Below, in pieces: positions 1 to 34,270 of a stretch of DNA of 40,721 nucleotides. Every line of letters starts with the position of its first letter. Position 1 is the first letter of the stretch. The stretch spans positions 1-40,721 of the forward strand of contig SLFU01000007.1 of NCBI GenBank assembly GCA_007124095.1, written 5' to 3'. The DNA is from Gemmatimonadota bacterium. GTDB lineage: Bacteria > Gemmatimonadota > Gemmatimonadetes > Longimicrobiales > Gaopeijiaceae. The notes beneath the pieces were generated by a model. That model saw nothing but the letters and a program-made list of their open reading frames with translations. It did no database searches and was not told the DNA's origin. A program made the position numbers and the translations under genes.

Positions 1-501
1 CATGTTGGTGAAGCCTGGACCTTCCGTACCGTTGCATGCGGTGACCTCACCCGTGCACCGGGCATAGGCGTCTGCGGCGTGGGCCGTTGATCGCTCGTCT
101 CGGCCTCCCCAGCAGGGGATGCCTTCTTCGGCGATCGCGTGCATCACGGTGTAGTTGCCGGGGCAGGTGAAGAGGCCCGCCACATTCTCTTCCTTGCAAA
201 GCTTTCCAAAGACCTGGGCTCCGGTCAGGGGCCAGTCCACATCGGGAAGCGGGTTGCGGCGCAGGTCGCTGAAGGCTGCGGGAACTGTGGGGCCGCTCTC
301 GAGGAGATCTCCCGGCTTGGAGCCAGGGACCTCCAACGGTTGGGCTGCGACATCCTTGCCCAGAACCGTGGCGGCGGTGAGGCCGGCTGCGCTCAACCCT
401 CCCTTCTTGAGGAAGTCCCGCCTGGAGACGTCCCCGTTGCGCGTGTGCTTTCCTTGGCCGACCTCTGCCTCGTGGTTCTGCTCACAACGTTCTTTGCTCA
501 T
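1..501 (-). CDS. Tat-exported thiamine pyrophosphate-dependent enzyme (acetolactate synthase/decarboxylase-like), truncated by window edge
   Basis: Hand translation of the minus strand from ATG at 501: MSKERCEQNHEAEVGQGKHTRNGDVSRRDFLKKGGLSAAGLTAATVLGKDVAAQ...GAQVFGKLCKEENVAGLFTCPGNYTVMHAIAEEGIPCWGGRDERSTAHAADAYARCTGEVTACNGTEGPGFTNM. Twin-Arg SRRDFL signal, then a TPP-enzyme N-terminal pattern (RDE..AAHAADAYAR..G..GPGFTN). Open to the edge, so absent from the ORF track. Confidence 0.85.
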   Translation of the reverse strand, partial: MSKERCEQNHEAEVGQGKHTRNGDVSRRDFLKKGGLSAAGLTAATVLGKDVAAQPLEVPGSKPGDLLESGPTVPAAFSDLRRNPLPDVDWPLTGAQVFGKLCKEENVAGLFTCPGNYTVMHAIAEEGIPCWGGRDERSTAHAADAYARCTGEVTACNGTEGPGFTNM

Positions 502-892
502 GGCCCGCTCGCTCCGTTCCGTGGGTACTGTTCCGTGCGGATATCTATTCGGACTCGCATTGTGGCCAAGGGCCTTCCCCATAGGGTACAAGACGACATA
601 ATAGGTTTTGCCCTGGGAGTGCGCAACGAGATCGGGGGGGTGGGGAATGGAGCTGTCGAGGGTAGGCTTTGGGGCGATCTGGCTCCTCAGGAACCCTTGA
701 TTGTCCGTGGGACTGAAAGTACTGTGCCAGACACCATACGTGCCGGGCGTTGAGCCACGGTCAGAAGGCCTCTCTTATAAGTGAGTCGAAGCGGGCATTG
801 CCGGGATCCGACCAATGGGTATTGGTACGGAAAGTATTCGTACGGTAAGAGGGGGTACTTCAGGGCGCGTACTAACGGAGAGGAGCACCGGT

Positions 893-2611: not shown

Positions 2612-2854
2612 GTGGGCCTCTTGGTGCGCCGTGAACTTTCTTGCGTCCGGGCTTCCCGCGGGCTAGTATGCGGGTCGTTTCCCCATGCGGTAGCTAGCAC
2701 ACAAACATAAAGGTCGATTCGCGGGCAATTTCCGTCCGCGTCCGGACGCTCTCCCGAGTGATGTATGCTCGTTCTTCTGAAGATGGTCTCTCAGCTCGTA
2801 TTCCGGCTGCAATCCAGTTTCATCCCCTCAAGACGCATAAGGAAAGGTATCCTG

Positions 2855-3985
2855 ATGAAGCGTATGATCCCTGTGATTCCAATGGCGGTGGGAATGGCGG
2901 TTTTCTTGCCGTTCTCCCAATCCATTGGCGAGCTCACGGCGCAGGAGCGTGAGTACAATATTGTCCATCCCCGTGCGACCTTCGATGGAGAACCCTTCGA
3001 TCCCATCGAGACGACGGTGGAGTACGAGGCGCACCCGTCGACGCAGGATCCGTCCGTCCGCGTCACCTTGGAGGACCTCCGCCGCTGGGAAACCGAGTTG
3101 TCCAATTGGGGGCGTTGGGGCACCAACGACCAGCGAGGTACGCTGAACTACATCACGCCCAGGAAGGCGCAGGAGGCTGCTGCGCTCGTCGAGGACGGCG
3201 TCGCCGTATCCGTCCAGCACTTCGTGCAGTGGGAGCCTTCGCTGGAAAGCTGGCGGTTTGCCCCTGCCGAGCGTTGGCACAGTCACATGGTCCTGGACGT
3301 CATGAGCTTTTCGACCCACGACGGGACGCTCTCCCACATGGATGCGATTTGCCACTATCCGGGCGCGCGCGACTCCCCGTCCAGGCGGGGGGAGCCGGGG
3401 GAAGAGCAGGTCATCTTCAACGGGTATCCCTACGTGGTCGATCATTTCGGCGGCTGTGAGAACCTTTCCATCAAACAGATGGGCTCGGCCTATGTGACGC
3501 GCGGGGTTCTATATGACATCGCCCACCTGAGAGGAGAAGACTGGTTGGAGCCATCGACTCCGATCTATGTGGAGGACCTGGAAGAGTGGGAGGAATATGC
3601 GGGGGTTCAAGTAGGGCCTGGCGATGTCCTCATGGTTCGGACCGGCCGTTGGGCCAAAACGGAAGCGGAAGGGGCTTGGGCCTACAACCGGGGTGGTGCC
3701 GGATTGCATGCGTCGGTCCTCCCTTGGCTCCATGAGAGGGGAGTAGCCGCACTCGTCGGGGATGCGGCAAACGATGTTCAGCCGTCCGGGGTCGACGGAA
3801 TCAACCGACCGGTCCACCAGGTCGGTATGATGGTGTTGGGCCTCGCCTTCGTGGACAATGGATACCTGGAGAATGTCGCTCGGGAGGCACGCGAGCGTGA
3901 CCGGTGGGAGTTCATGCTTTCCTGGCAGCTTTGGCCGATTCCGGGAGGAACCGCCAGTCCGTTTAATGCTCTCGCAACCTTCTGA
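2855..3985 (+). CDS. Exported cyclase-family (PF04199-like, kynurenine formamidase/isatin hydrolase superfamily) metal hydrolase, paralog A
   Basis: STHDGTLSHMDAICHY metal-site-like motif; PGDVLMVRTGRW; N-terminal hydrophobic signal MKRMIPVIPMAVGMAVFLPFS. Paralogous to 33155-34270. Confidence 0.85.
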   Translation: MKRMIPVIPMAVGMAVFLPFSQSIGELTAQEREYNIVHPRATFDGEPFDPIETTVEYEAHPSTQDPSVRVTLEDLRRWETELSNWGRWGTNDQRGTLNYITPRKAQEAAALVEDGVAVSVQHFVQWEPSLESWRFAPAERWHSHMVLDVMSFSTHDGTLSHMDAICHYPGARDSPSRRGEPGEEQVIFNGYPYVVDHFGGCENLSIKQMGSAYVTRGVLYDIAHLRGEDWLEPSTPIYVEDLEEWEEYAGVQVGPGDVLMVRTGRWAKTEAEGAWAYNRGGAGLHASVLPWLHERGVAALVGDAANDVQPSGVDGINRPVHQVGMMVLGLAFVDNGYLENVAREARERDRWEFMLSWQLWPIPGGTASPFNALATF

Positions 3986-4045
3986 GAACTGAAGCTGCTA
4001 GTCACGAAAAAGCGTCTTCAGGCCAACGTTGAAAAGGTGAATTAG

Positions 4046-5209
4046 ATGAATCGCAACCTCCTCTTCCTTCCGATTCTGGCGGCAATGCTGGGAATCGGAC
4101 CAATCATTTCGAGTTCTGCCACCCTTGCAGCCCAGATCGAATTCCCCGAACAGCGCACCCGAGCGGGGTCACTTTGGGACGCGAATCTCCCCAGGGAACA
4201 AAGCCTCTTGGGCCTCAAGGTCTATAACATCCATCCCGAGACTCAGACGCAGTCACGCCTGGTGACCCCCGAAGACATCCGTAGATGGGAGGACGAGCTG
4301 TCGAACTGGGGACGTTGGGGGGACGAGGACACCAAGGGGCTACTGAATCTCATCACTCCGGAGAAGACGTACGAAGCCGTTCAGCTGGTGGAGTACGGCA
4401 TTTCCGTGAATCTCCAGCACTTTGCATCCTTTACTCCCGAGGTCGATAGCTGGCGGTTCTGGCCCAGCGAAAAGTGGCTGACCTCAGTGGATCTCGAGAC
4501 CGGCGCCCCGAGCACGGGAGGTGCCCTGGATGCGATTCGCTTCAATGTCCATGACGGCACGATGTCTCACCTGGACGGCATCTGCCACTACGCTCGCATG
4601 GAGCCCATGGCGGACCTGGATCCGAATGTCAGGGTAACCTACAACGGACATTCGCACCCGACGACCGAGGTGTCGTGTCAGGGAGAGACCGGGATCACCG
4701 GAATGGGTGAAGGCTACATCACCCGTGGAATCCTGGTCGACATGCCGTTGCTCAAAGGTGTCGACTGGCTCGATCCGACAACACCGATCTTCGTAGAAGA
4801 CCTCGAGGCGTGGGAAGAGTTCGCCGGCGTCGAGTTTGGCCCCGGCGACGCCCTCCTGCTCCGGACGGGTCGGTGGGCCAAGCGCGAAGCGAAGGGTCCA
4901 TGGAAATACGACCAGGGTGCGGCAGGACTGCATGCTTCTGTATTGCCGTGGCTTCACGAACGGGACATCTCCCTCCTTGTGAGCGATGCCGTGAGTGACG
5001 TCCAGCCTTCCGGCGTGCAGAACTCGTTTCGCCCGGTTCACACCGTCAGTATGGTGGTCATGGGGCTGCCGCTGGTCGACAACGGGTACCTCATTGAGCT
5101 GGCTGCAGAGGCTCAGCGACTTCAGAAGTGGGAATTCATGCTCTCGTGGTTGATCAATCAGAGCGAAGGCGGGACCGGGGTTCCATTCAACGGGGTTGCC
5201 ACCTTCTGA
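4046..5209 (+). CDS. Exported cyclase-family metal hydrolase, paralog B
   Basis: NVHDGTMSHLDGICHY motif, signal peptide MNRNLLFLPILAAMLGIGPIISSSATLAAQ, C-terminus WEFMLSWLINQSEGGTGVPFNGVATF nearly identical to that of 31918-33081. Confidence 0.85.
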   Translation: MNRNLLFLPILAAMLGIGPIISSSATLAAQIEFPEQRTRAGSLWDANLPREQSLLGLKVYNIHPETQTQSRLVTPEDIRRWEDELSNWGRWGDEDTKGLLNLITPEKTYEAVQLVEYGISVNLQHFASFTPEVDSWRFWPSEKWLTSVDLETGAPSTGGALDAIRFNVHDGTMSHLDGICHYARMEPMADLDPNVRVTYNGHSHPTTEVSCQGETGITGMGEGYITRGILVDMPLLKGVDWLDPTTPIFVEDLEAWEEFAGVEFGPGDALLLRTGRWAKREAKGPWKYDQGAAGLHASVLPWLHERDISLLVSDAVSDVQPSGVQNSFRPVHTVSMVVMGLPLVDNGYLIELAAEAQRLQKWEFMLSWLINQSEGGTGVPFNGVATF

Positions 5210-5273
5210 GGGATGCGTGCTAGCCAGTTGTGATACGAGCGCCCTCGCTACTTACTTGACGGAGGTACCAGAG

Positions 5274-6860
5274 ATGTCCGACGACGCGAATCAGAACCAG
5301 GACCAAGAGCAGCAAGGAAAGGTGTCACGAAGGCGCTTTCTCGGAGTGGCGGGCGCTGGTGCTGCTGCGGCCACGGTGGGGGGCTTCTCAAATGCTCGGG
5401 CCGAGTCCGTGCCGGTCCAGAACATCCCCGAACGCAGGACCGATGTGGTCGTGGCCGGGGCTGGAATGGGTGGCCTTACGGCCGCTGTGAGGGCACAGAG
5501 TCAGGGCGCCGATGTGATTCTCCTCGAGAAGGCCGCCGACCCCGGGGGCACGATGCGGGAATCCGCAGGTGGAATCCACGGTGGCGCGAGCAGCTATGAG
5601 GAGATGCGGGAACGCTGCCCTTGGGGCGATGCCGATCTCCAGAGGGCGCTGGCCACCAATTTGCCGCGCTCTTATTCCTTCTACGAGAGCATTGATGCTC
5701 CGGTGGGCCCCCCCGGGGACAATCCGCTCAGCCGCAGCATCGGGCGGCCGCCGGTGGCCTTCTCGAACTTCATGGTCAATACCTTCGAGAGCCAGGGCGG
5801 GACGCTTCTCACAGAGACGCCACTCCTTCGACTCGTGCGGAATTCCCGCGATGAAGTCATCGGGGTGGTCGCCGAAGGGCCGGATGGTCCGATCCGGATC
5901 CTGGCCAACGCCGTCATTTTGGCCACAGGAGGCTGGGCAGGAAATGCGGAGATGGTGCACCGTTATATCACCCGCGAGTTCCAGAGCATCCATCAGCGTA
6001 ATTGCGGCTTTGCCGGACTGCAGCCGGCGCTGACCGGGGATGGCTTCTTGGCCGCTACGAGTATAGGCGCTGCTCCGTCGGACGGTGGCTTCGACTCCTT
6101 TTACGGGCACCTCCTGCCAGCTCGCCCGGCCCAGTTTTCCCACCCCCTGATCGACTACTCCCTGTATCACGGGGAGTGGGTTGTTGCGTTGAATGTGAGG
6201 GGTGAGCGCTTCACGGATGAATCGAGAGGGAAGCTGTCGGGTTGGGGGGTCGAGCATACTCCGAGCGAGCAGGCCTTGAATGTCGAAGTGGCCTACCAGC
6301 CGGATGCGGCCGCAGCCTACATCTGGGATCATCATATCAATGAGACTCAAGCCCTGGCTGAGCAGAATCTCGGAACGATCGACAAATACGAAGCGTTTCG
6401 GCAGGCAGGGGCGCCGGTGGCCCGAGCCGATACCCTGGAGGACCTGGCCGATCAGATGGAACGGTGGGGCCGCGGGATGCCGGCCGAAAAGGTGCTCCGC
6501 GAGCTGACGCAGTACAACGAGGCGGCCCGCAATGGCCGGGCAGCGGCGCTGCCCATCCCGAAGGAGGATCCGGAGTACGCGGTTCCTGTCAGCGAACCCC
6601 CCTTCTATGCGGTGTTGGGCCAGACCGGTCTCACCGGGTCGTACGGAGCCCTGAAGGCGAATGCCGAGGGCCAGGTGCTGTCCCGGACCACCCGTCCGAT
6701 TCCGGGCTTGTACGCGGCCGGGATCGACATCGGCAATATTGCCGCCAACTCCCAGTATCTCGGGTTCCTGGGATACGGAGCGGCGTTCGGCTACATCTCG
6801 GGTACGAATGCAGCGAATCACCCGGGACCGCAGGGAGGATGGGAGATTGCATCTTCGTGA
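5274..6860 (+). CDS. Tat-exported FAD-dependent oxidoreductase (fumarate reductase/KstD-like flavoprotein), copy 1
   Basis: SRRRFLGVAGAGAAAATVGGFSNARAE Tat signal; Rossmann FAD motif DVVVAGAGMGGLTAAVRAQSQGADVILLEKAADPGGT; C-terminal RPIPGLYAAGIDIGNIAANSQYLGFLGYGAAFGYISG. Confidence 0.9.
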   Translation: MSDDANQNQDQEQQGKVSRRRFLGVAGAGAAAATVGGFSNARAESVPVQNIPERRTDVVVAGAGMGGLTAAVRAQSQGADVILLEKAADPGGTMRESAGGIHGGASSYEEMRERCPWGDADLQRALATNLPRSYSFYESIDAPVGPPGDNPLSRSIGRPPVAFSNFMVNTFESQGGTLLTETPLLRLVRNSRDEVIGVVAEGPDGPIRILANAVILATGGWAGNAEMVHRYITREFQSIHQRNCGFAGLQPALTGDGFLAATSIGAAPSDGGFDSFYGHLLPARPAQFSHPLIDYSLYHGEWVVALNVRGERFTDESRGKLSGWGVEHTPSEQALNVEVAYQPDAAAAYIWDHHINETQALAEQNLGTIDKYEAFRQAGAPVARADTLEDLADQMERWGRGMPAEKVLRELTQYNEAARNGRAAALPIPKEDPEYAVPVSEPPFYAVLGQTGLTGSYGALKANAEGQVLSRTTRPIPGLYAAGIDIGNIAANSQYLGFLGYGAAFGYISGTNAANHPGPQGGWEIASS

Positions 6861-6948
6861 ATCAGTTGGGGTACTGTAGCTGACTCGAGGGTATCAGGAC
6901 TTTAAGGTATCTGGACTCGACTTACACAAGACGAAGGCGTGAAAGACC

Positions 6949-8532
6949 ATGGCGAACAATGACAAGGACCGATCAGCGACGGACTCGAGGGTGTCTCGCA
7001 GACGTTTTCTCGGCGTAGCGGGCGCTGGAGCGGCCGCCGCCACTGTCGGCGGCTTCTCGAATGTGCGAGCCGAATCCGTACCGGTACGGAATATTCCTGA
7101 GCACAGGACAGATGTGGTCGTGGCTGGAGCCGGAATGGGGGGGCTCACCGCTGCCGTGCGTGCCCAGAGTCAGGGTGCCGATGTGTTCCTCCTGGAGAAG
7201 GCGGAAGATCCTGGGGGCACGATGCGGGAGTCCGCGGGCACGATCCACGGAGGGGTGAATAGCTACGAGGAAATGCGGGAGGTCTGCCCCTGGGGAGATG
7301 CCGGGCTCCAGAGGGCTCTCGCCGAGGGGTTGCCTCAGGCATACTCGTTCTACGACAGCATTGATGCTCCGATTGGTCCGCCGACCGACAGTCCGCTGGT
7401 TCGGAACATCGGGCGTCCGCCCGTGGCCTTTTCCAATTTTCTCGTGAATCGCTTCGAGAGCCAGGGGGGTACGCTTCTCACCGAAACTCCCCTCCTGCGA
7501 CTGGTGAAGAACGCGCAGGACGAGGTGATCGGGGTGGTGGCAGAAGGGCCGGATGGTCCGGTTCGAATCCTGGCCAATGCCGTCATCCTGGCGACCGGGG
7601 GCTGGGCAGGGAATGCGGAAATGGTGCACCGCTACATTACGCGGGAGTTTCAGAGCTTGCACCAGCGCAATTGCGGATATGCCGGCCTGCAGCCGCCATT
7701 GACCGGGGATGGGCTCTGGGCAGCGACGAACATCGGTGCCGCTCTCTCCGACGGCGGCTTCGATAGCTTCTACGGGCATCTCCTTCCAGCTCGCCCGGCC
7801 CAGTTCACCCATCCGCTGATCGATTACTCTTTGTATCATGGGCAGTGGTGTGTCGCACTGAACGTGCGGGGGGAGCGCTTCACGGACGAGTCGCGAGGGA
7901 AATTGTCCGGCTGGGGTGTCGAGACTTCTCCCAGTGAGCAGGCGGTCAACGTAGAGGCAGCGTACCAACCCGATGCGGCCGCCGCGTACATTTGGGATCA
8001 CGAGATCAACGAGTCCCAGGCTCGGGTAGGCGTGCAGGTTCTGGGGGACATCGACAAATACGATGCGTTCAGGCAGGCAGGGGCGCCGGTGGCTCGGGCT
8101 GACACCCTCGAGGATCTGGCGGATCAGATGGAGCGCTGGGGTCGGGGGATGCCGGCCGAAAAGGTGCTCCGTGAGCTGACAGAGTACAACGAGGCGGCCC
8201 GTAATGGACGGGCAGCGGCACTGCCCATTCCGAAGGAGGATCCGCAGTACGCGCTTCCCCTTGGAGAGCCCCCATACTATGCGGTGTTGGGCCAGACCGG
8301 GATCACGGGCTCTTACGGTGCCTTGAAGGCGAACCCCCAGGGTCAGGTTTTGTCTCGGACCACACGCCCGATTCCAGGCCTCTATGCGGCCGGGATCGAC
8401 ATTGGAAACATTGCCGCTAATTCTCAGTATCTCGGGTTCCTCGGGTACGGGGCTGCGTTCGGCTATATCTCGGGTACAAATGCAGCGAACTATTCGGGAC
8501 CTCGAGGCGGTTGGGACATCGCGTCGTCGTAG
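6949..8532 (+). CDS. Tat-exported FAD-dependent oxidoreductase, copy 2 (tandem paralog)
   Basis: SRRRFLGVAGAGAAAATVGGFSNVRAE Tat signal and FAD motif; visibly very similar to the preceding gene along its length. Confidence 0.9.
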   Translation: MANNDKDRSATDSRVSRRRFLGVAGAGAAAATVGGFSNVRAESVPVRNIPEHRTDVVVAGAGMGGLTAAVRAQSQGADVFLLEKAEDPGGTMRESAGTIHGGVNSYEEMREVCPWGDAGLQRALAEGLPQAYSFYDSIDAPIGPPTDSPLVRNIGRPPVAFSNFLVNRFESQGGTLLTETPLLRLVKNAQDEVIGVVAEGPDGPVRILANAVILATGGWAGNAEMVHRYITREFQSLHQRNCGYAGLQPPLTGDGLWAATNIGAALSDGGFDSFYGHLLPARPAQFTHPLIDYSLYHGQWCVALNVRGERFTDESRGKLSGWGVETSPSEQAVNVEAAYQPDAAAAYIWDHEINESQARVGVQVLGDIDKYDAFRQAGAPVARADTLEDLADQMERWGRGMPAEKVLRELTEYNEAARNGRAAALPIPKEDPQYALPLGEPPYYAVLGQTGITGSYGALKANPQGQVLSRTTRPIPGLYAAGIDIGNIAANSQYLGFLGYGAAFGYISGTNAANYSGPRGGWDIASS

Positions 8533-8607
8533 ATCGGCCGATCCTCGTAATGAGCGATACGAAAAGTTGTTTCTCATGAACGAATAATAGACGGGAGTTC
8601 ACATAGA

Positions 8608-9360
8608 ATGAGCGCCTCGGAAAGCGGTGCCTATGCGATCAGCTTGGTGTCGTTCCTCCTTCTCACCGTTTTCTTTTTTGTGACACCTGTGCCGGGTGCG
8701 TCTCAGGAGGCGCCCTCCGGAGAGGACTTGTACATCACTCAGTTGGGATGCGGTGGTTGCCATGGATATTCCGGTGAGGGTGCCATGGGACCGGCCCTTC
8801 AGGACGGGAAGTTGCCATTGCGCGACTTTGTCCGATTGGTGCGGGCACCAAGAGAGCTGATGCCCAGGTTCTCGCCGATGATCGTGTCGGATTCCGACCT
8901 GGCGGTCATCTATGACTGGCTCAATGGAGTTGAAGAGCTCGATACTCCTTTGCCACTAGCCTTTTCAGCCGAAGGATTTGGAGCGGAAGCCACCGGGAGC
9001 TTTTCGTTGCACAAGGCGGAGCTGAATGGGTCTCCTGTCGCCGCTGACGCCGAGTCCGTGCGTCTTCGGCTCACCTTGACCAAGGCAGGTGATGAGCAAC
9101 CCGTCTCCGGTCATCGGATCGCCATTCAGTTGTCTGAAGATGGAGAGTGGCAGGATCTGGAAACCGATTGCAAGGGACAGGTCGTCTTGAATGAGAAGCA
9201 GGAGATCAAGGTGGACGATTCGCTTGCCAATGGTAAATCCGTGCTGACGAGCTTGAACATCTCGGACCTTCTTGCAGGGCGATATTCAGTGATTTTGGAG
9301 GCCTTGAGTGGACGCGAATCCGTTCTCGGAATCGGCTCTGCCGTTATCACTGTAGACTAG
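8608..9360 (+). CDS. Exported monoheme c-type cytochrome with C-terminal beta-rich domain
   Basis: Single CxxCH: GEDLYITQLGCGGCHGYSGEGAMGPALQDGKLPLRDFVRLVRAPRELMPRFSP, plausible Met axial ligand downstream; N-terminal signal peptide. Confidence 0.85.
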   Translation: MSASESGAYAISLVSFLLLTVFFFVTPVPGASQEAPSGEDLYITQLGCGGCHGYSGEGAMGPALQDGKLPLRDFVRLVRAPRELMPRFSPMIVSDSDLAVIYDWLNGVEELDTPLPLAFSAEGFGAEATGSFSLHKAELNGSPVAADAESVRLRLTLTKAGDEQPVSGHRIAIQLSEDGEWQDLETDCKGQVVLNEKQEIKVDDSLANGKSVLTSLNISDLLAGRYSVILEALSGRESVLGIGSAVITVD

Positions 9361-11558: not shown

Positions 11559-12017
11559 ATGATGCAGAAGACGTTGCAGTTCCTCGGACTCGGCCTATTG
11601 TGTGTGGCCCTGTCCACTACCATGCCGACCCAAGTGGTCGCGCAGGATCGGGGCACGGATCAGGCGGTCGCCGAGAATCTGGGGTATGGTCTCGAGTCCG
11701 GTGACGCGGTCATCATCATCATTCCGGAAGATCTTGATCCCGGTGACCGGGTGGTCAGGACGGGCATCGAGGTGACCGGTGGAGTGACATCACCGGTCTC
11801 AGTAGGGAATTGCCATCGGGGTGAGCTTCCCATGCAGGCTGGAATCTTCGGGATGCGGGACGGAAGTGGTTCCCCGGTTGAGATGGAACTTGCCGTTCTT
11901 TATCCCGACAATGTAGAGCTGCCCGAAGGGATCATGTTGGGGGCGTGGAGAGAGGGTGGGCCGTGTGGTCCTGGATATCAGATTCTCCGTGGTCACATCC
12001 TTGACACCGATTACTGA
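11559..12017 (+). CDS. Small secreted two-cysteine protein ('GTDQ' protein, copy 1), function unknown
   Basis: MMQKTLQFLGLGLLCVALSTTMPTQVVAQ signal, then DRGTDQAVAENLGYGLESGDAVIIII...SVGNCHRGELPMQAG...AVLYPDNVELPEGIMLG...GGPCGPGYQILRGHILDTDY; paralogous to 34758-35219. Confidence 0.75.
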   Translation: MMQKTLQFLGLGLLCVALSTTMPTQVVAQDRGTDQAVAENLGYGLESGDAVIIIIPEDLDPGDRVVRTGIEVTGGVTSPVSVGNCHRGELPMQAGIFGMRDGSGSPVEMELAVLYPDNVELPEGIMLGAWREGGPCGPGYQILRGHILDTDY

Positions 12018-13847: not shown

Positions 13848-13919
13848 AAGCCACTCCGGAGGGACGCACGAGTCGGGGTTTCGACTTCGTGAGGTGCCCT
13901 CCGGAGTGGCTTTCTTTTT
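13848..13919 (+). terminator. Long intrinsic terminator with branched inner stem
   Basis: AAGCCACTCCGGAGGG (13848-13863) pairs with CCCTCCGGAGTGGCTT (13897-13912), followed by TCTTTTTG; inner CACGAGTCG/CGACTTCGTG near-perfect stem. Confidence 0.85.
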
Positions 13920-13967
13920 GTCCTCATGGTCCTTGTGAGTTCGGGTGTCGGCCTGTAGGCTTTCCAG

Positions 13968-17472: not shown

Positions 17473-17748
17473 ATGCCTCAAGACAGCTATTCGACCTATG
17501 ACGCCAAGGCCCGTTTTTCGGAGCTCTTGCGGAAGGTTCGGGGAGGTCTCTCCGTTACGATCACCTATCGGGGTGAGCCGGTCGCAGAGCTTCGGCCGAT
17601 CGATCCTCCGGGAAGCACGGACGCCCGAATCGAACGGCTTGCTGAGCGGGGCCTCGTAACCCCGAAACCCGCGCGACGGGAGCTCGAGCCTGTGACGAGA
17701 CGTCCGGGCGCGCTCGAGCGCTTCCTGAAGGAACGTGAGGAAGGGTGA
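17473..17748 (+). CDS. Type II antitoxin, Phd/YefM-like
   Basis: MPQDSYSTYDAKARFSELLRKVRGGLSVTITYRGEPVAELRPID N-terminal Phd/YefM pattern; GTGA overlap with the PIN gene. Confidence 0.8.
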   Translation: MPQDSYSTYDAKARFSELLRKVRGGLSVTITYRGEPVAELRPIDPPGSTDARIERLAERGLVTPKPARRELEPVTRRPGALERFLKEREEG

Positions 17749-18146
17749 GCCGCCTCTTCTTCGTCGACACTTCCGCCCTCGTCGCCCTGGCCTTCCAGGA
17801 GCCCGGACACGAGTGGCTCACAGAACAACTGGCGTCCGCTCGGGACCTCTTCGCGGCTCCACTCCTGGAGGCGGAGTTCAGGGCCGCGCTCGCCCGCGAG
17901 GAGGTGGAGCAGGGACTTGAGTTGCTCGAGTCTTTCCGGTGGGTTCTGCCGAACCGGCCGCTGAGTGCGGAGTTGGAGCGAGTGTTTTCGGTCGGATACG
18001 CGCGCGGCGCCGATGCGTGGCATCTGGCGACGGCGCTTTTCCTCACCGAGAGGCCTCGAGACCTTCCCTTCGTCACACTGGATGAGCGGCAGCAGAAAGT
18101 CGCCCGCGCAGTGGGCTTTCCGACCCCTCATCCTCCGGGGCCGTAG
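17745..18146 (+). CDS. PIN-domain toxin (VapC-like)
   Basis: MSRLFFVDTSALVALAFQEPGHEWLTEQL ... SVGYARGADAWHLATALFL ... LPFVTLDERQQKVARAVGF; PIN acidic residues; start GTG overlaps antitoxin stop. Confidence 0.85.
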   Translation: MSRLFFVDTSALVALAFQEPGHEWLTEQLASARDLFAAPLLEAEFRAALAREEVEQGLELLESFRWVLPNRPLSAELERVFSVGYARGADAWHLATALFLTERPRDLPFVTLDERQQKVARAVGFPTPHPPGP

Positions 18147-18170: not shown

Positions 18171-20474
18171 TCAGAGCTGAAAAAGCCGGGTGACCTTTAT
18201 GACGAAGGCCCGGTTCGAGAGATCGGAAAACCGGTCGAAGACATCGGTGTCGCGATCCTCCGTATAGACGAAGAAGATCTCGCTGCCGGGGGAGTATTCC
18301 CATCGAAGACGCAGATTGGTCGAGAAGGTCTGGGTACTGGAGCTGTATTGCACCAGCCCGCTCACGAACATCCGCGGTGTGAAACTGTAGTTGACCCGGG
18401 TGGCGGCCAAGTGACTCGTAAAGCTTCCCTCCTCCAGATCCACCCAATTGAACGAGAGGCTCGGCTCAATCGAAAGCTGGTGTGTGATTCCCATCCGGCC
18501 CTGGCCAATGCCCACGGAGGTTCGGTTCCCAGTAAAGAATGAACCGGTGCGCACCGTCAGGTTTCCCGAGTACCTTCGGTGGGGGCCGAAGGTGTAGCCG
18601 GCCTCCACATCCTGAAATCCGTACGTCCCTGTCGGAATCGTCACCTCGTCCGCAATCTCGAAGGGGGCCGTCAGCCGCTCACGGCTCTCGGTGGCCGTCA
18701 CGGTGAATCGGTCGCTGTTCTCCATCTCGACGCGGAATCTTCCCTGCCTCTCCCGGGTTTCCACGAAGCCTTCAGCGGCGTTCTCGATGTAGTCCACGCC
18801 GGCCTCCAGGGTAAACTGGCGGATCGAGGGAATCGAGGAGGGACGGGGACTGACCCGGGCAACGCCCGAGGTCTCCCGGAATCCGTCCCGACGCACGAAC
18901 CCGATCTGGGGATCGAAGTTTTCTTCCACCAGGAGATGCTGAAGCTCGAGGCCCCACTCGTCTCCGGCGTAGCCTCCTTGTACCCGGTAGCTCTTGTCCC
19001 GTCCGTCGAGCCCGGGTGTCCGCGTCCGGGCCAGGTACCCGACAAAGTTGAGGTCACCCGGAAAGGAGAACGTCGCATCCAGTCCATAGGTCTGGTTGGA
19101 GCCGGCACCCAGTACCGACCTCGACCGATTCCCGTACAGCATCCCAACGTTGCTTCGTCGAAAGATGTCCCGGCGCAGCCGCAGAACGGTGAAGTCCGTC
19201 TCACGCGCACCGGCGGCCTCTTCCCCTTCGGTACGAATCGCCAGGGCTCCCACATCGAAATCGCCGACCTTCCCGGTGAGTCGGCTGCCTCCCAGGATCG
19301 GTATGGGCTGCCCTCGGTCAAGTCCGATCCGCCGACTGAAGAAGAGGGAGGGTGTACGACCGCCCCCGCCCCCAATCCCGGTTGTGGCAAAGTCGAAGAT
19401 CCCCCGACCTTCGAGGAAGAACTCCCGCTTCTCGGGAAGAAAGACATCGAAACGGGTCAGGTTCACCTGCTCTTCGTCCACCTCGACCTGGGCGAAGTCA
19501 GTGTTGTACGTAAAGTCCGCGGTCAGACTCTCGGTGAGCCCATACTTCAGGTCTATTCCCACATCCCCGTGGAGAGCATTGGACACTTCCGGTGTGCGGG
19601 TCCGGTCGGTCCGGAGCTCGGATATACCGTAGGGCTTAACCTCCAGGTTGCGGCTGGGCTCCGGCGCCTCGAGATCCACCAGGGTTCCCGCCGCAGAGAC
19701 TCGAAGCACGCCCCCAGGCCCGCTTCTGGCGGCCGATGCGGGGATGCGCGTCAGGTGCACCCACTCGTTCTTTCGGCGGATCGACCGACGGAACTGGACT
19801 CCCCAGACCTGCGACGTGCCGGGCCGGTATCGAAGTGACTTGAACGGAATCTCCATCTCCACGGTCCAGCCTCCGTCGAACCGGCCGGTCCGCACATCCC
19901 AGACCGGATTCCAGTCCGAGTTCGGACTCCCTTCGTTCGTCACGGCGAACTCGGCGATCGCCCCCAGGGGATTCGTATAGAAGCTCACCCCGTTTCGCCG
20001 GTCATAGAAGGTGTCGAAGAGGACTCCGAAGGTGTCGTTCTCCCGAAGCTGCGTCGCGTTTCGACGCATTTCATTTGCGACCCACTCGCTTTCGGGGGCC
20101 GAATCCCAGAGGCGGGCTCCGACGTAGATGTTCGTGTCGTCGAACGCGATCCAGACTTCGGTCTTCTCGGTAGCCGGCTCCCCGTGGTCGGGCAGGCCCT
20201 GTATCAGCCCCGTGATCGGAGGGACCGTGTCGTAGAGGGTCTCGTCGAGGACCCCATCGACGCGAATGGGCTCGTCGACGCGAATGGCCCGGACCGTAAC
20301 CCTCCCGCTCTCGTCCCGGTTCATAACGGCGGGAGGGATCGGGGGAGGAGGCCCATCGATTTGGGAGGCTGTCGTTGGGGTGCCTCGATCCTCAATCGGT
20401 TCCTGCGCGAATCCGGGCGCACACGGGGCAGAGAGGAGAAGGGCCGGAAAGACCACGAAGAGACGAGGTATCAT
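18171..20474 (-). CDS. Exported DUF5916 / carbohydrate-binding family 9-like outer-membrane protein
   Basis: IRVDGVLDETLYDTVPPITGLIQGLPDHGEPATEKTEVWIAFDDTNIYVGARLWDS...DGGWTVEMEIPFKSLRY...FLPEKREFFLEGRGIFDF..., C-terminal beta-barrel-like LRWEYSPGSEIFFVYTEDRD. Signal peptide MIPRLFVVFPALLLSAPCAPGFAQ. Confidence 0.85.
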   Translation of the reverse strand: MIPRLFVVFPALLLSAPCAPGFAQEPIEDRGTPTTASQIDGPPPPIPPAVMNRDESGRVTVRAIRVDEPIRVDGVLDETLYDTVPPITGLIQGLPDHGEPATEKTEVWIAFDDTNIYVGARLWDSAPESEWVANEMRRNATQLRENDTFGVLFDTFYDRRNGVSFYTNPLGAIAEFAVTNEGSPNSDWNPVWDVRTGRFDGGWTVEMEIPFKSLRYRPGTSQVWGVQFRRSIRRKNEWVHLTRIPASAARSGPGGVLRVSAAGTLVDLEAPEPSRNLEVKPYGISELRTDRTRTPEVSNALHGDVGIDLKYGLTESLTADFTYNTDFAQVEVDEEQVNLTRFDVFLPEKREFFLEGRGIFDFATTGIGGGGGRTPSLFFSRRIGLDRGQPIPILGGSRLTGKVGDFDVGALAIRTEGEEAAGARETDFTVLRLRRDIFRRSNVGMLYGNRSRSVLGAGSNQTYGLDATFSFPGDLNFVGYLARTRTPGLDGRDKSYRVQGGYAGDEWGLELQHLLVEENFDPQIGFVRRDGFRETSGVARVSPRPSSIPSIRQFTLEAGVDYIENAAEGFVETRERQGRFRVEMENSDRFTVTATESRERLTAPFEIADEVTIPTGTYGFQDVEAGYTFGPHRRYSGNLTVRTGSFFTGNRTSVGIGQGRMGITHQLSIEPSLSFNWVDLEEGSFTSHLAATRVNYSFTPRMFVSGLVQYSSSTQTFSTNLRLRWEYSPGSEIFFVYTEDRDTDVFDRFSDLSNRAFVIKVTRLFQL

Positions 20475-20665
20475 CGGAGGACCGTTCGAAATCTCTGAGG
20501 GACGTCCGACGTGATGAGGGGACGGGAGAGTCAAGCGCCGTCTTGGCCGGGGGCGCGCCGTGTGTTCAATCCGGGATTCTCAATCGGCGTTGATCACCCC
20601 TGGAAAAATAGACGTCATTCGCTGCCTGAGTGACGGCCTGCACGAATTGGGAACACCACGAGCTA

Positions 20666-29193: not shown

Positions 29194-31452
29194 CTACCTC
29201 TGGAAGAGATACTGGAATTTGGCGAAGTACTGCCGGTCGGTCTCGACGAAGGCCCGCTCGTCGAACTGTGAGGACCCGTGACTTGAGCCGAGATAGAACA
29301 TCGTGAATGGATTGAGTTGGTAGACCAAAAGGGGCTCGAGATCGAGCCGATTTTCGAAATCGTTGTACTGGAAAACCATCCGGACATTCAATTCGCGATT
29401 GTACTGAAAACCGAAGCGGGTTCGTATGACGTAGCCGCTGAAGACATCCTCGCCGCTGAACAAACTCAACTCCTGGTAGTTGATCGACGGCTCAATAGTC
29501 ATGCGTTGCGTTGGCTGGATCGTCGCCGATAGCTCGGCGTTCCACCCCTCTCCCACCTCTGGGACGGCGAGGGTTCGGGCCACCCGGTTTCCGGCGCCGA
29601 GGTTGATTTCACCCCGAAACGCCGAGCTGAAGTCGCTCATCACCATGAGCGAATGCTCTCGGATGCCGGCGAGCCGTTCTCCACGGAACACTTCCCGGCG
29701 AAAGGTCGTGCTGATCCCCACGGCGGTCTGGCGAGGGAGGGTGACGCTGACCCCGGGGGCGAAGACGTCCTGGGTGCGGACCCCCCCGAAATTCCAGTAG
29801 CTGCCGCCGAAGAGGGAGCCCGATATTCGCTCCAGGTATTGCCGGTTCGGGTAGAAGGTAACTCCGGTCCATCCCGTTGCCCGGCGAAAGTCGTTCTGCG
29901 ACTGGAAACCGGTATCGGCCCGGTAGGTAGGTGAGACCTCCAGGTAAAGGACGTTCCAACTCCAGGTTCGGGCATCCCGGGCAAAGCGGAGGAATCCCGA
30001 ATGGCCGGTGAACGACTCGCCATCGAAGGCCGCCGTGTATCCCTCGTCCCCGAAGGTGATGTCGGGAAGACCGAGGCTCAGCTCCGGATCGTTAGGCTCG
30101 CGCGTGTGGTTGAGGACCATGTGCCCATCCAGGCTGTACATTTCGCCGAATCGGAAGTGTCCGTCCACGCTCGCCGTCGTTCCCGAACCCCCTCCGTCCA
30201 GGCGGCGGTCGGTCAGGAGCGCCCCTACGTGGGATCCGCCGAGGTTGTGCTGCAGGCGTAGCACGTTCGTGAAGCTCATCCCCGCCTGGAGAATGGCAGT
30301 CTCCTCCGCGAAGGGAACTACAAAGGGAGTGTGCCTGTCCCGGGCCCCGATGTAGCCGATGCTCGTCCGACCGGTCCGCCCGGTGAGCTTGGTCGCGGCC
30401 TGAGGGGCGTTGATGGATCGGGAGTAAAAAACATCCAGCGGGGTCCTGTAGAGGTCCATCCCCTCTTGGAAGAACGGTCTCCGTTCTGGATAGAAGAGGG
30501 CGAAGGTCGTGTTCACGTCGATCTGATCCGTATCCGATTCCACCTGGCTGAAGTCGGGGTTCAGGGTGGCTTCCGTGGTCCACCCCTGTTGGAAGGTGTA
30601 TCTGAGTCCCAGGGAGGGCTGCGTCAGCAAGGATCCCGTCTCGAAGGAATCGGGATCAGACGTGTCCGCGAGCGCCCCTCCTTGGGAGACGACCAGCGAG
30701 GGCAGCACCTCGAGGTTACCACCTGTGCGAATGGCTTCGATCCCGCTGAGCGACGCGAGCTCGCAGAGCTGGCACGAGTTGTTCCGGCTCCATGCCGGCC
30801 AGGTGATGTAGTGTTTGTTGGAGCGTGGCCAGGTTCGCGCCAGCATGATCCGCCAGTCGTGCTCGGCCCGCTCCGGTACTGGCAGGCTCCGGAAGGGGAT
30901 CGCCATCTCCACGACATAGCCGTCGTCCGTGATCCGACCCGCCGTCGTGAAGACGAAGTCGATCGACCCGTCCTCGCTCGTGGTGGTGAGTTGCAGGTCG
31001 GCCTGCACCCCGACCGGGTTCGAGAGGAAGGCGTAACCGACCGACGCGTCACCGTATGGATCGAGCAGAACGCCCACCCAATCGTCGCTCCAGAGCTGGT
31101 CTCGCGGCTGAAGGGCGGCTCGGATCGTGCTCGGGTCGGGGTCCCTCGCGATGAATGCCACGTAGAGGTTCGACTCGTCGTAGGTGAGGAGCACGTCGGT
31201 TTCCGCCGGCGGAACCGCTCCTTCCCGGGGGGTCCGCTCCACGAAGTCCGTGATCCGCGTCGCGCCCGCCCATCCCGGATCCTCCAGCTCCCCGTCGATC
31301 TCGATTGGCCCGGGTGCGGGCTGAATATGGACTCCACGTGGGGAGGCCGTTGCCATCTCGGGAGTGCCCTGCTGTGCGTCGACGGGCCCTGGTGATCCCA
31401 GGAGCTGGAGGACAACGGTGCTCAGGAAGGCATTGAGGGTGAGGCAGCGCAT
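29194..31452 (-). CDS. Exported DUF5916 / carbohydrate-binding family 9-like outer-membrane protein, second copy
   Basis: IQPAPGPIEIDGELEDPGWAGATRITDFVERTPREGAVPPAETDVLLTYDESNLYVAFIARDPDPSTIRA...NTTFALFYPERRPFFQEGMDLYRTPLDVFYSRSI; barrel-like C-terminus ending YFAKFQYLFQR. Confidence 0.85.
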   Translation of the reverse strand: MRCLTLNAFLSTVVLQLLGSPGPVDAQQGTPEMATASPRGVHIQPAPGPIEIDGELEDPGWAGATRITDFVERTPREGAVPPAETDVLLTYDESNLYVAFIARDPDPSTIRAALQPRDQLWSDDWVGVLLDPYGDASVGYAFLSNPVGVQADLQLTTTSEDGSIDFVFTTAGRITDDGYVVEMAIPFRSLPVPERAEHDWRIMLARTWPRSNKHYITWPAWSRNNSCQLCELASLSGIEAIRTGGNLEVLPSLVVSQGGALADTSDPDSFETGSLLTQPSLGLRYTFQQGWTTEATLNPDFSQVESDTDQIDVNTTFALFYPERRPFFQEGMDLYRTPLDVFYSRSINAPQAATKLTGRTGRTSIGYIGARDRHTPFVVPFAEETAILQAGMSFTNVLRLQHNLGGSHVGALLTDRRLDGGGSGTTASVDGHFRFGEMYSLDGHMVLNHTREPNDPELSLGLPDITFGDEGYTAAFDGESFTGHSGFLRFARDARTWSWNVLYLEVSPTYRADTGFQSQNDFRRATGWTGVTFYPNRQYLERISGSLFGGSYWNFGGVRTQDVFAPGVSVTLPRQTAVGISTTFRREVFRGERLAGIREHSLMVMSDFSSAFRGEINLGAGNRVARTLAVPEVGEGWNAELSATIQPTQRMTIEPSINYQELSLFSGEDVFSGYVIRTRFGFQYNRELNVRMVFQYNDFENRLDLEPLLVYQLNPFTMFYLGSSHGSSQFDERAFVETDRQYFAKFQYLFQR

Positions 31453-31825
31453 GATGCACCTGTTCGAGCCGAGGGCGGGAGCACCGGATGCTGGCTTCCG
31501 TAACGCTGGGGAGGACCCGAGCCGGGAAGCCGACCATCCACTTACAAGCTTGGACGTAGAAAGGGGGAGGATGGTTTCAACCGACAGGGACCAGCGGGGA
31601 TTGGATCGCGTCGCTGCTGCCATCATGGAGCGAGCTCGGCACGCTCCGAGTCTTTCCGGGGGATGGATCGGGCAGGGGACGGCCTGGACGTCGACCGACC
31701 GGAGGGCACGGATCAATGGCGGCCGCCATGAACTCGAACGGGCCCCGGCCTTCTGGAGTTGACTCCAGGAGACCAGGGCCCGCAATCGGACCTTGAGGTC
31801 TTAGAACACTCGGCGTTGTTCGTTC

Positions 31826-31917: not shown

Positions 31918-33081
31918 CTAGAAGGTGGCAACTCCACTGAATGGGACCGCAGTGCCTCCATCACTCTGATTGATCAACCAGGAGAGCATGAACTCCCACC
32001 GCTGGAATTCCCGCGCTGTCGCAGCTACATCCTCCAGATACCCGTTGTCGACCAGTGGAAGTCCCATCGCCACCATGCTGATCGTATGGACGGGCCGCCC
32101 GAAACCTTCGACTCCGGACGGCTGAACGTCCGTTACGGCGTCCCCGACGAGGAGAGAGACGTCCCTCTCCCGCAGCCAGGGCAAGACCGAAGCGTGGAGC
32201 CCGGCGCCTCCCTGATCGTACTTCCAGGGCCCCTCTGCTTCCCGCTTGGCCCACCGGCCCGTCCGAATCAGGAGGGCATCGCCCTCACCAATCGTGACTC
32301 CGGCGAACTCTTCCCATGCTTCGAGATCCTCAATGAAGATCGGAGTGCTGGGTTCGAGCCATTCCACCCTCTTCATGAGCGGCATGTCCACCAGGACGGC
32401 TCGAGTCACATAGCCCTCGCCCATTCCCATCACACCGACGTCTCCCTGACACGAGAGCTCGGTGCGAGGGTGTCGGTGGTTGTTGTAGGTGACCCGATAG
32501 TCGGGATCGATGTCCGCGAGGGGAGGACGTCGGTCGTAGTGGCAGATCGCGTCCAGGTGTGAGAGCGTCCCGTCGTGTGTGGAAAAGCGAATGGCGTCCA
32601 ACGCCGCTCCCGTACCTACTTCGCCCGTCTCCGGGTTGACCGAGGTGAGCCACTTCTCGCCGGGCCAGAACCGCCAGCCGTCCACCGAGGGGTGGAACTC
32701 CGCCATGTGCATCAGGTTGACCGTCCTGCCTTCTTCCACGAGCGCGATCGCCTCGAGCGCCTTCTGAGGGGTAATCATGTTCAGGGCGCCCCGGGTATCA
32801 TCATCTCCCCACCGGCCCCAGTTCGAGAGCTCTTCCTCCCACCTGCGGGTATCCTCCGCCGTAACCAGCCGAGCCGGGTCCTGCGTGGCGGGATGGGCTT
32901 CGTATTGCCTCATCCCGAGAGTGCTCAGATATCGCGGGATATCGCGGTCCCAGACATGGCCAGCACGGGTTCTCTGCTCGGGGTATTCAATCTGGGCTTG
33001 GAGTTCACCGGCGTGCATCACCAAGGGTCCCAGACCCAGGAGAGCTGCCAGAACGGGAATAAGAAGAAATCTACGGTTCAT
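31918..33081 (-). CDS. Exported cyclase-family metal hydrolase, paralog C (closest to B)
   Basis: STHDGTLSHLDAICHY motif; signal MNRRFLLIPVLAALLGLGPLVMHAGELQAQ; C-terminus WEFMLSWLINQSDGGTAVPFSGVATF. Confidence 0.85.
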   Translation of the reverse strand: MNRRFLLIPVLAALLGLGPLVMHAGELQAQIEYPEQRTRAGHVWDRDIPRYLSTLGMRQYEAHPATQDPARLVTAEDTRRWEEELSNWGRWGDDDTRGALNMITPQKALEAIALVEEGRTVNLMHMAEFHPSVDGWRFWPGEKWLTSVNPETGEVGTGAALDAIRFSTHDGTLSHLDAICHYDRRPPLADIDPDYRVTYNNHRHPRTELSCQGDVGVMGMGEGYVTRAVLVDMPLMKRVEWLEPSTPIFIEDLEAWEEFAGVTIGEGDALLIRTGRWAKREAEGPWKYDQGGAGLHASVLPWLRERDVSLLVGDAVTDVQPSGVEGFGRPVHTISMVAMGLPLVDNGYLEDVAATAREFQRWEFMLSWLINQSDGGTAVPFSGVATF

Positions 33082-33154
33082 CGGAATCACCTTTTCCTCG
33101 ACGTTGTCCATAAACCATTCAGAGTGCAGTCAGAGCGCAGTGTCAGGCTTGCAC

Positions 33155-34270
33155 TCAGAAGAGTGCCAAAGCGTTGAACGGACTCGCCGTTCCACCTGGA
33201 ATCGGCCAGGTCTGCCAGACGACGGCGAACTCCCACCGCTCCCGTTCTCGCGCCTCCCGAGCCACGTGCTCCAGATAACCGTTGTCTACGAAGGCCAGAC
33301 CAATGACGAGCATTCCAACTTGGTGTACCGGCCGGTTGATCCCCTCGACTCCGGAAGGCTGTACGTCATTGGCTGCATCTCCAATGAGGACCGAGACGCC
33401 CCTCTCATGCAGCCAGGGGAGAACGGAGGCGTGCAGCCCTGCACTTCCTCGGCTGTAATCCCACGGACCCTCCGCCTCGGTCTTCGCCCACCGTCCGGTC
33501 CGCATGAGAATCACATCACCCGGTTCGGCCCTGACCCCGGCGAAGTCCTCCCAGGCTTCCAGGTCCTCGATGAAGATCGGCGTCGAAGGATCCAGCCAGT
33601 CCTCTCCCCGCATCAGGGGAATGTCGTAGAGCACTCCGCGGGTGGCGTACGTGGTCCCCATCTGCTTGATCGAAAGGTTCTGGCACCCGTCGATGTGATC
33701 GACCTCGAAGGGGTATCCGTTGAAGATCACGCGCTCCCCGTCCGGGGCACGGGTAGAGGGTGAATCCCGGTCCCCCGAGTAATGGCAGATCGCATCCATG
33801 TGCGACAGTGTACCATCGTGTGTGGAAAAGCTCATGGCGTCGAGGCCGGTGCTGGTGTGCCAGCGCTCCGCTGGTGCGAATCGCCAGCTTTCCAGTGAAG
33901 GCTCCCACTGCACGAAGTGCTGAAGTGAGACATTGATTCCGTCTTCCACGAGTGCCAGCGCCTGCCGGGTCTTGGCTGGGGTGATCATATTGAGTGTGCC
34001 GCGCTGATCGTCCGCTCCCCAACGGTGCCAATTCGACAACTCCGTTTCCCAACGGCGGAGGTCGGCCATGGTCACCCGAACGGATGGGTCCTGGGTTGCT
34101 GGATGGGGCTGGAAGTCCTCCGTTCCCTGGATGGGATCGAAAGGCTCACCGGAGAAGGTGGCTCGGGGATGGATGAGCTCCTGTCCCGAGAGTTCTCCCC
34201 CTGACGAAAAGGCGGGAGAAAAAGTGAGCACCCCCAACACGAGCGGGATGAGAAAGGTCGAGCGCTTCAT
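33155..34270 (-). CDS. Exported cyclase-family metal hydrolase, paralog D (closest to A)
   Basis: STHDGTLSHMDAICHY motif; signal MKRSTFLIPLVLGVLTFSPAFS; VHQVGMLVIGLAFVDNGYLEHVAREARERERWEF...WPIPGGTASPFNALALF matches paralog A. Confidence 0.85.
   Translation of the reverse strand: MKRSTFLIPLVLGVLTFSPAFSSGGELSGQELIHPRATFSGEPFDPIQGTEDFQPHPATQDPSVRVTMADLRRWETELSNWHRWGADDQRGTLNMITPAKTRQALALVEDGINVSLQHFVQWEPSLESWRFAPAERWHTSTGLDAMSFSTHDGTLSHMDAICHYSGDRDSPSTRAPDGERVIFNGYPFEVDHIDGCQNLSIKQMGTTYATRGVLYDIPLMRGEDWLDPSTPIFIEDLEAWEDFAGVRAEPGDVILMRTGRWAKTEAEGPWDYSRGSAGLHASVLPWLHERGVSVLIGDAANDVQPSGVEGINRPVHQVGMLVIGLAFVDNGYLEHVAREARERERWEFAVVWQTWPIPGGTASPFNALALF

Follow-up and report, generated by a model that had tools for sequence, protein, structure and literature searches.

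Small Sec-exported proteins paired with Tat-exported flavoproteins in a Gemmatimonadota genome: putative accessory subunits of ketone-desaturase-like enzymes

The window analysed here, a stretch of 40,721 nucleotides from a Gemmatimonadota bacterium, encodes a small secreted protein directly ahead of a flavoprotein that bears a Tat signal, and the locus raises the question of what the small protein does beside the enzyme. A reading made from the sequence alone had described an undescribed secreted family paired with Tat flavoproteins and had offered an electron-transfer partner, a chaperone or a substrate-binding subunit as possible roles. It is proposed here, with a probability of about one half, that the adjoining flavoenzyme has in this protein an accessory subunit of its own, without catalytic function.

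A small Sec-exported protein in five copies

The small protein P0001 is encoded at 11559..12017 on the + strand (ATG at 11559, stop at 12015-12017; defined by ORF, translation and family alignment), with the ribosome-site-like sequence GGGGG about 8 nt 5' of the ATG. It is 152 aa long; a Sec-type signal peptide ends at about residue 28 and leaves a mature protein of about 124 aa. Cys is present at precursor positions 85 and 136. A second copy in the window, P0002 (34758..35219, +; ORF and translation), has a mature form of about 128 aa and is 61% identical to P0001 over the full length, and both lengths agree with the roughly 130 aa given by the sequence-only reading. The source assembly (2.83 Mb in 242 contigs, 95.8% complete) holds five copies in total, the remaining three residing on contigs C49, C178 and C163 and being 68%, 56% and 46% identical to P0001, respectively; the C49 copy is cut at its 5' end by the contig edge and its N terminus is missing. 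The tetranucleotide profiles of the contigs agree with r values of 0.91-0.98, which is a partial check on foreign contigs in a mixed assembly.

The four motifs on which the family had been founded (DRGTDQxVAxNLGYGxExGxAVI, SVGNCHRxELPxQAG, AVLYPDxVELPxG and GGPCGPGYxIxRxHxLxTDY) are all present in P0001 and P0002 and only partially kept in the other three copies, with C163 lacking DRGTDQ and CHR. Across the five copies 32 mature positions are invariant, including many Gly as well as Pro, acidic residues, two Cys and one His. Each mature protein (5/5) contains exactly two Cys, about 51-55 residues apart, and both are invariant as had been claimed; the CxxCH heme motif is absent from all copies, again as claimed, and so is CxxC. 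No twin Arg occurs in any copy with a known N terminus (that of C49 being cut) and the signals are of the Sec type. Lipoprotein anchoring was ruled out, as a lipobox is not consistent across the copies.

Pairwise comparison of the small proteins gives dN/dS values of 0.14-0.40, the synonymous sites being almost saturated (dS 1.1-2.8); the copies are therefore proteins under purifying selection rather than chance ORFs. The partner flavoproteins are more constrained (dN/dS 0.08-0.14). Profile searches of Pfam, NCBIfam, PHROGs and PDB gave no match to the small protein, the best hits being at chance level with E 0.4 or worse (0.4 in PHROGs), which bears out the statement that no known domain is recognisable; a clear match to a characterised family was likewise not found in these four libraries. 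Two members were modelled with AlphaFold on the basis of the five sequences; the models have pLDDT values of 74.6 and 81.7 (the latter for P0002) and are both all-beta with an identical order of six strands. Foldseek, a check that the sequence-only reading had suggested for the predicted fold, returned no match to either model in PDB or BFVD at E <= 0.001, and its best matches were chance-level beta-barrels and OB-like folds. A new fold is thus possible, with models that are only fair and rest on five sequences.

The small protein was not found in a genome of the same genus, nor in 121 genomes of the same family, 394 of the class and 395 of the phylum (overlapping samples, the source genome excepted), and the paired flavoprotein clade is equally restricted, none having been found outside the source genome. 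Weak matches in relatives were ruled out as frames within unrelated, longer proteins. Scans of GTDB genomes, IMG/VR and plasmids with degenerate patterns for the small protein were also empty, by a method that misses diverged relatives: the corresponding flavoprotein scan returned no relatives despite 56%-identical ones in genomes G021 and G042, and such scans are therefore weak for diverged sequences. With five paralogues in a single genome so far, the family is not widespread. None of the libraries searched describes it, and no carrier beyond that one genome is known so far.

Pairing with a Tat-exported flavoprotein

P0001 is followed by P0003 (12148..13785, +), a Tat flavoprotein that matches FAD_binding_2 (PF00890, E 2.5e-29) and is ketone-desaturase-like in the PDB profile search, and P0002 is followed by P0004 (35385..37025, +; E 1.3e-31); their dinucleotide motif GxGxxG is present as GAGMGG / GAGIGG near residue 67. 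The twin Arg is invariant in 9/9 aligned flavoproteins, within SRRxLLGGAAAG, as in a Tat substrate. The genome encodes eight close flavoproteins of this type, five paired with a small protein and three unpaired. The paired ones are 68-100% identical to P0003 and 67-85% identical to one another and form one clade with a support of 100/100, while the three unpaired flavoproteins (53-56% identical to P0003) and the G021 homologue fall outside. Additional residues around positions 147-168 are carried by the paired flavoproteins and missing from the unpaired ones; the length of this stretch varies and is shortest in C163.

In all five units the small gene lies directly upstream of the flavoprotein gene, on the same strand and with a gap of 113-165 bp, so that the neighbourhood check proposed by the sequence-only reading gives 5/5 within the source genome, and the description of an unrecognised secreted family paired with Tat flavoproteins stands. 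Neither the small gene nor a flavoprotein of the paired clade occurs alone in the genome. The intergenic DNA of the units is merely 36-58% identical, most similarity having been lost. The outer neighbours differ, one unit being flanked by an FAA hydrolase and a threonine dehydratase, unit b (P0002 and P0004) by two Cyclases and a TonB-dependent receptor, and the other three by an S15 peptidase, by a gamma-glutamyltransferase and a DUF5916 protein, and by a lumazine-binding-like protein and a penicillin amidase. For the threonine dehydratase, 73%-identical relatives occur in three same-family genomes but not in the same-genus genome, which also bears in part on the question of foreign contigs. 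The sole recurring outer neighbours are DUF5916 proteins, which are of the outer-membrane type and are encoded no more than about 6 kb away in four of the five units (window 18171-20534 and 29194-31785; locus L025, 3549-8505; locus L026, 4127-6391), and the one at window 18171-20534 is 66% identical to that at L025 6178-8499.

The five units do not count as independent pairings because they were probably duplicated from one ancestral unit. The evidence for pairing is instead the retention of the pair through long divergence within the source genome, which is well supported. The trees of the two partners agree in part, with a C1a-C49 grouping common to both, and the C163 copy is far more diverged in its small protein than in its flavoprotein. 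In unit a (P0001 and P0003) the two genes may share a transcript: no terminator-like site was found between them, and the flavoprotein gene is followed by a probable intrinsic terminator (13848..13920, +) consisting of a perfect 16-bp inverted repeat (13848-13863 / 13897-13912) around an internal loop region of 33 nt and of a T-rich tail. Its RNA fold has an energy of -54.6 kcal/mol (z -7.1); the simple terminator scan, limited to loops of 8, misses it.

A search of PDB profiles with the flavoprotein ranks flavocytochrome c fumarate reductases ahead of 3-ketosteroid dehydrogenase and cyclohexanone dehydrogenase. In 9/9 flavoproteins, however, Tyr506 takes the place of the catalytic Arg in the NRLGG motif of the fumarate reductases, and it aligns with Tyr570 of cyclohexanone dehydrogenase. 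This replacement argues for an enzyme that desaturates a cyclic carbonyl compound rather than one that carries out a fumarate-type reduction. Ring-shaped ketones, oxidised outside the membrane, are the probable substrates of the flavoenzyme. Tyr286, Tyr424 and Tyr457 are invariant along with Tyr506; around the catalytic-base Tyr of the cyclohexanone / ketosteroid dehydrogenases (Tyr376 / Tyr195) the alignment is too remote to place a counterpart.

A proposed accessory role and its alternatives

The occurrence of five two-gene units, in each of which the small gene precedes the gene of a flavin enzyme, makes a dedicated helper subunit the most likely role of the small protein. According to the proposed mechanism it would pass through Sec unfolded and then adopt a small all-beta fold that a single disulfide, Cys85-Cys136, secures, while the flavoprotein would be exported via Tat already folded and with FAD bound. 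Once both are in the periplasm, the small protein would bind the flavoprotein, with the extra stretch at about 147-168 as a candidate docking site, and might stabilise or cap it or position the electron acceptor. The substrate would probably be a cyclic ketone, lactone or lactam that loses two hydrogens from its alpha,beta position to the flavoenzyme; the electrons would then pass to a cytochrome c encoded elsewhere.

This proposal draws on the position of all five copies upstream of the genome's five closest flavoprotein paralogues, which form one clade, and on the persistence of the pairs despite near-saturated dS, intergenic decay and differing outer neighbours. The arrangement of terminators in unit a, the six-strand pattern that recurs in two models from different sequences and the insertion common to the paired flavoproteins argue in the same direction. 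There is also a precedent in FAD glucose dehydrogenase, the catalytic subunit of which depends for its folding and its secretion on a small subunit to which a disulfide joins it (PMC6719666). On the other side, the insertion varies in length and may have nothing to do with binding, the units probably descend from one ancestral unit, gaps of 113-165 bp allow separate promoters, and the two trees are only partly congruent. In its widest form, the small protein would represent a new fold and family that serves as the Sec-exported, disulfide-locked subunit of Tat-exported FAD_binding_2 ketone desaturases, was gained once at the base of the clade and multiplied with the enzyme to five specialised pairs in one genome; this fuller account is put forward tentatively, with the odds somewhat against it.

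Tat substrates fold and acquire FAD prior to export. This weighs against a periplasmic maturation factor or chaperone that would bind transiently after Tat export, assisting folding, protection or FAD retention, and take no part in the working enzyme. Such a factor would suit a small protein that is exported via Sec, is the product of the first of two genes, is present once for every paired flavoprotein and evolves faster than its partner (dN/dS 0.14-0.40 vs 0.08-0.14); however, the unpaired paralogues manage without it, and five specific copies are more in keeping with a stoichiometric subunit, since a single chaperone could suffice for all five flavoproteins at 67-85% identity. The chaperone role is accordingly doubtful. 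A role in substrate binding or delivery, by which the beta domain would take up the cyclic substrate and hand it on to the flavoprotein, seems improbable: diverged paralogous pairs would fit five substrate specificities and the neighbourhood contains hydrolases and a TonB-dependent receptor, but the profile and fold searches show no resemblance to any binding-protein family or fold, and Gly, Pro and Cys make up most of the invariant residues, as is typical of structural roles.

Most unpaired relatives adjoin a cytochrome c (at 8608-9360 in the window, and in G021 and G042) where the paired ones have the small protein instead, and it might on this account be an electron carrier that replaces the cytochrome. 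This role, which the sequence-only reading had also raised, is very improbable, as CxxCH and CxxC are both absent, the two Cys are of a non-CxxC type and comparison with the C-terminal domain of the cytochrome c gave a hhalign probability of 0.2%, by which homology between the two was ruled out. With one invariant His only and no invariant Met, the proteins show no type-1 copper site, and a heme or type-1 copper carrier is thus unlikely on the residues present. Cytochrome, thioredoxin-like and cupredoxin readings were ruled out on the same residues; no cupredoxin was among the fold matches listed, and the ligand set of two His and a Cys is not found. It is just as hard to credit an independent function of the small gene, for example in the cell envelope or at the surface, with joint duplication as the only link to the flavoprotein gene. 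The copies are confined to one genome and could stem from a single linkage event, but the five pairs kept adjacency, order and strand through near-saturated divergence, intergenic loss and change of neighbours, and neither gene of the pair stands alone.

The partners usually known for extracytoplasmic FAD_binding_2 enzymes transfer electrons through heme or FMN. If the accessory-subunit proposal is true, a partner without a known family or recognisable cofactor site would be another way to build such enzymes and would provide a handle on many Tat flavoproteins of uncultured bacteria. The five natural pairs permit a direct test of partner specificity.

The nearest functional precedent is the gamma "hitchhiker" subunit of the DET-type FAD dehydrogenases, such as the FAD glucose dehydrogenase of Burkholderia cepacia; this subunit is likewise small, has its gene together with that of a periplasmic FAD dehydrogenase, also involves cysteines or disulfides (a disulfide being predicted here) and was without fold relatives when described (PMC6719666). 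The gamma subunit helps the flavin subunit to fold, to be secreted and to remain stable, a role to which the one suggested here would be akin (PMC6719666). It differs in that it carries the Tat signal for the complex, whereas here each partner has its own signal, Sec on the small protein and Tat on the flavoprotein; it comprises five alpha-helices rather than a predicted six-stranded all-beta domain, and its catalytic partner belongs to the GMC oxidoreductases and contains a 3Fe-4S cluster, in place of the FAD_binding_2 protein found here (PMC6719666). Membership of the hitchhiker group therefore fails on signal type, fold and flavoprotein class.

Among the relatives of the flavoprotein, cyclohexanone dehydrogenase of Alicycliphilus denitrificans (PDB 8am6/8am3/8am8) is of the FAD_binding_2 fold family, has a carbonyl-binding Tyr and aligns in its N-terminal segment including the RR region, but is only distantly similar (profile E ~1e-24). 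The available part of its description reports that Tyr570 hydrogen-bonds the ketone oxygen and that the gene adjoins a three-subunit 3-hydroxycyclohexanone dehydrogenase, and that part mentions no counterpart of the small protein (PMC10966990). The 3-ketosteroid dehydrogenases (PDB 7p18, 4at0) are about as remote, share the fold family and have a Tyr in the final FAD-domain motif (7p18). They are not known to have a small partner. The flavocytochrome c fumarate reductases (PDB 1qo8, 1d4d) are the best-scoring solved relatives (E ~5e-30), from which the partner flavoprotein differs by Tyr506 and by having no heme domain.

Unpaired relatives and other features of the window

Two unpaired Tat flavoproteins are encoded in the window at 5196..6860 (+; 54% identical to P0003, preceded by a Cyclase gene and with no small protein upstream) and 6949..8532 (+; 53% identical, by Pfam and alignment). 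Directly 3' of them lies the gene of a secreted cytochrome c (8608..9360, +) with the motif CGGCH and a match to Cytochrome_CBB3 (E 2.3e-8), the C-terminal domain of which has no Pfam match; it is a candidate electron acceptor for the flavoprotein family. Ahead of the unpaired flavoproteins are two secreted Cyclase (PF04199) genes (2765..5209, +), and the resulting cluster at 2765-9360 reads Cyclase, Cyclase, flavoprotein, flavoprotein, cytochrome c and follows a PQQ-type dehydrogenase. A further two Cyclase genes (31918..34270, -) are divergent from unit b, which makes four Cyclase-family genes in the 40-kb window, in two tandem pairs that each lie near a flavoprotein. A related order of Cyclase (PF04199), Tat flavoprotein, cytochrome c and Cyclase is seen in two other genera, at L028 4326-8740 (G021) and L029 2334-6727 (G042). 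The unpaired flavoprotein of contig C167 has no adjacent cytochrome c; at L015 1492-4151 the gene 5' of it on the same strand encodes another secreted protein, which contains a long stretch of Gly and matches nothing in Pfam. Hydrolases of the Cyclase family (PF04199) are able to open cyclic amides, and an extracytoplasmic route of ring desaturation and ring opening is plausible.

At the edge of the window, 1-591 (-) encodes a truncated thiamine-pyrophosphate-dependent enzyme (PF02776) with a Tat-like N terminus, SRRDFLKKGG, in a family that is normally cytoplasmic. At 17473-18146 a short Phd/YefM-type antitoxin-like gene overlaps a 133-aa ORF on the same strand, and the two, judged by eye, possibly form a toxin-antitoxin pair.
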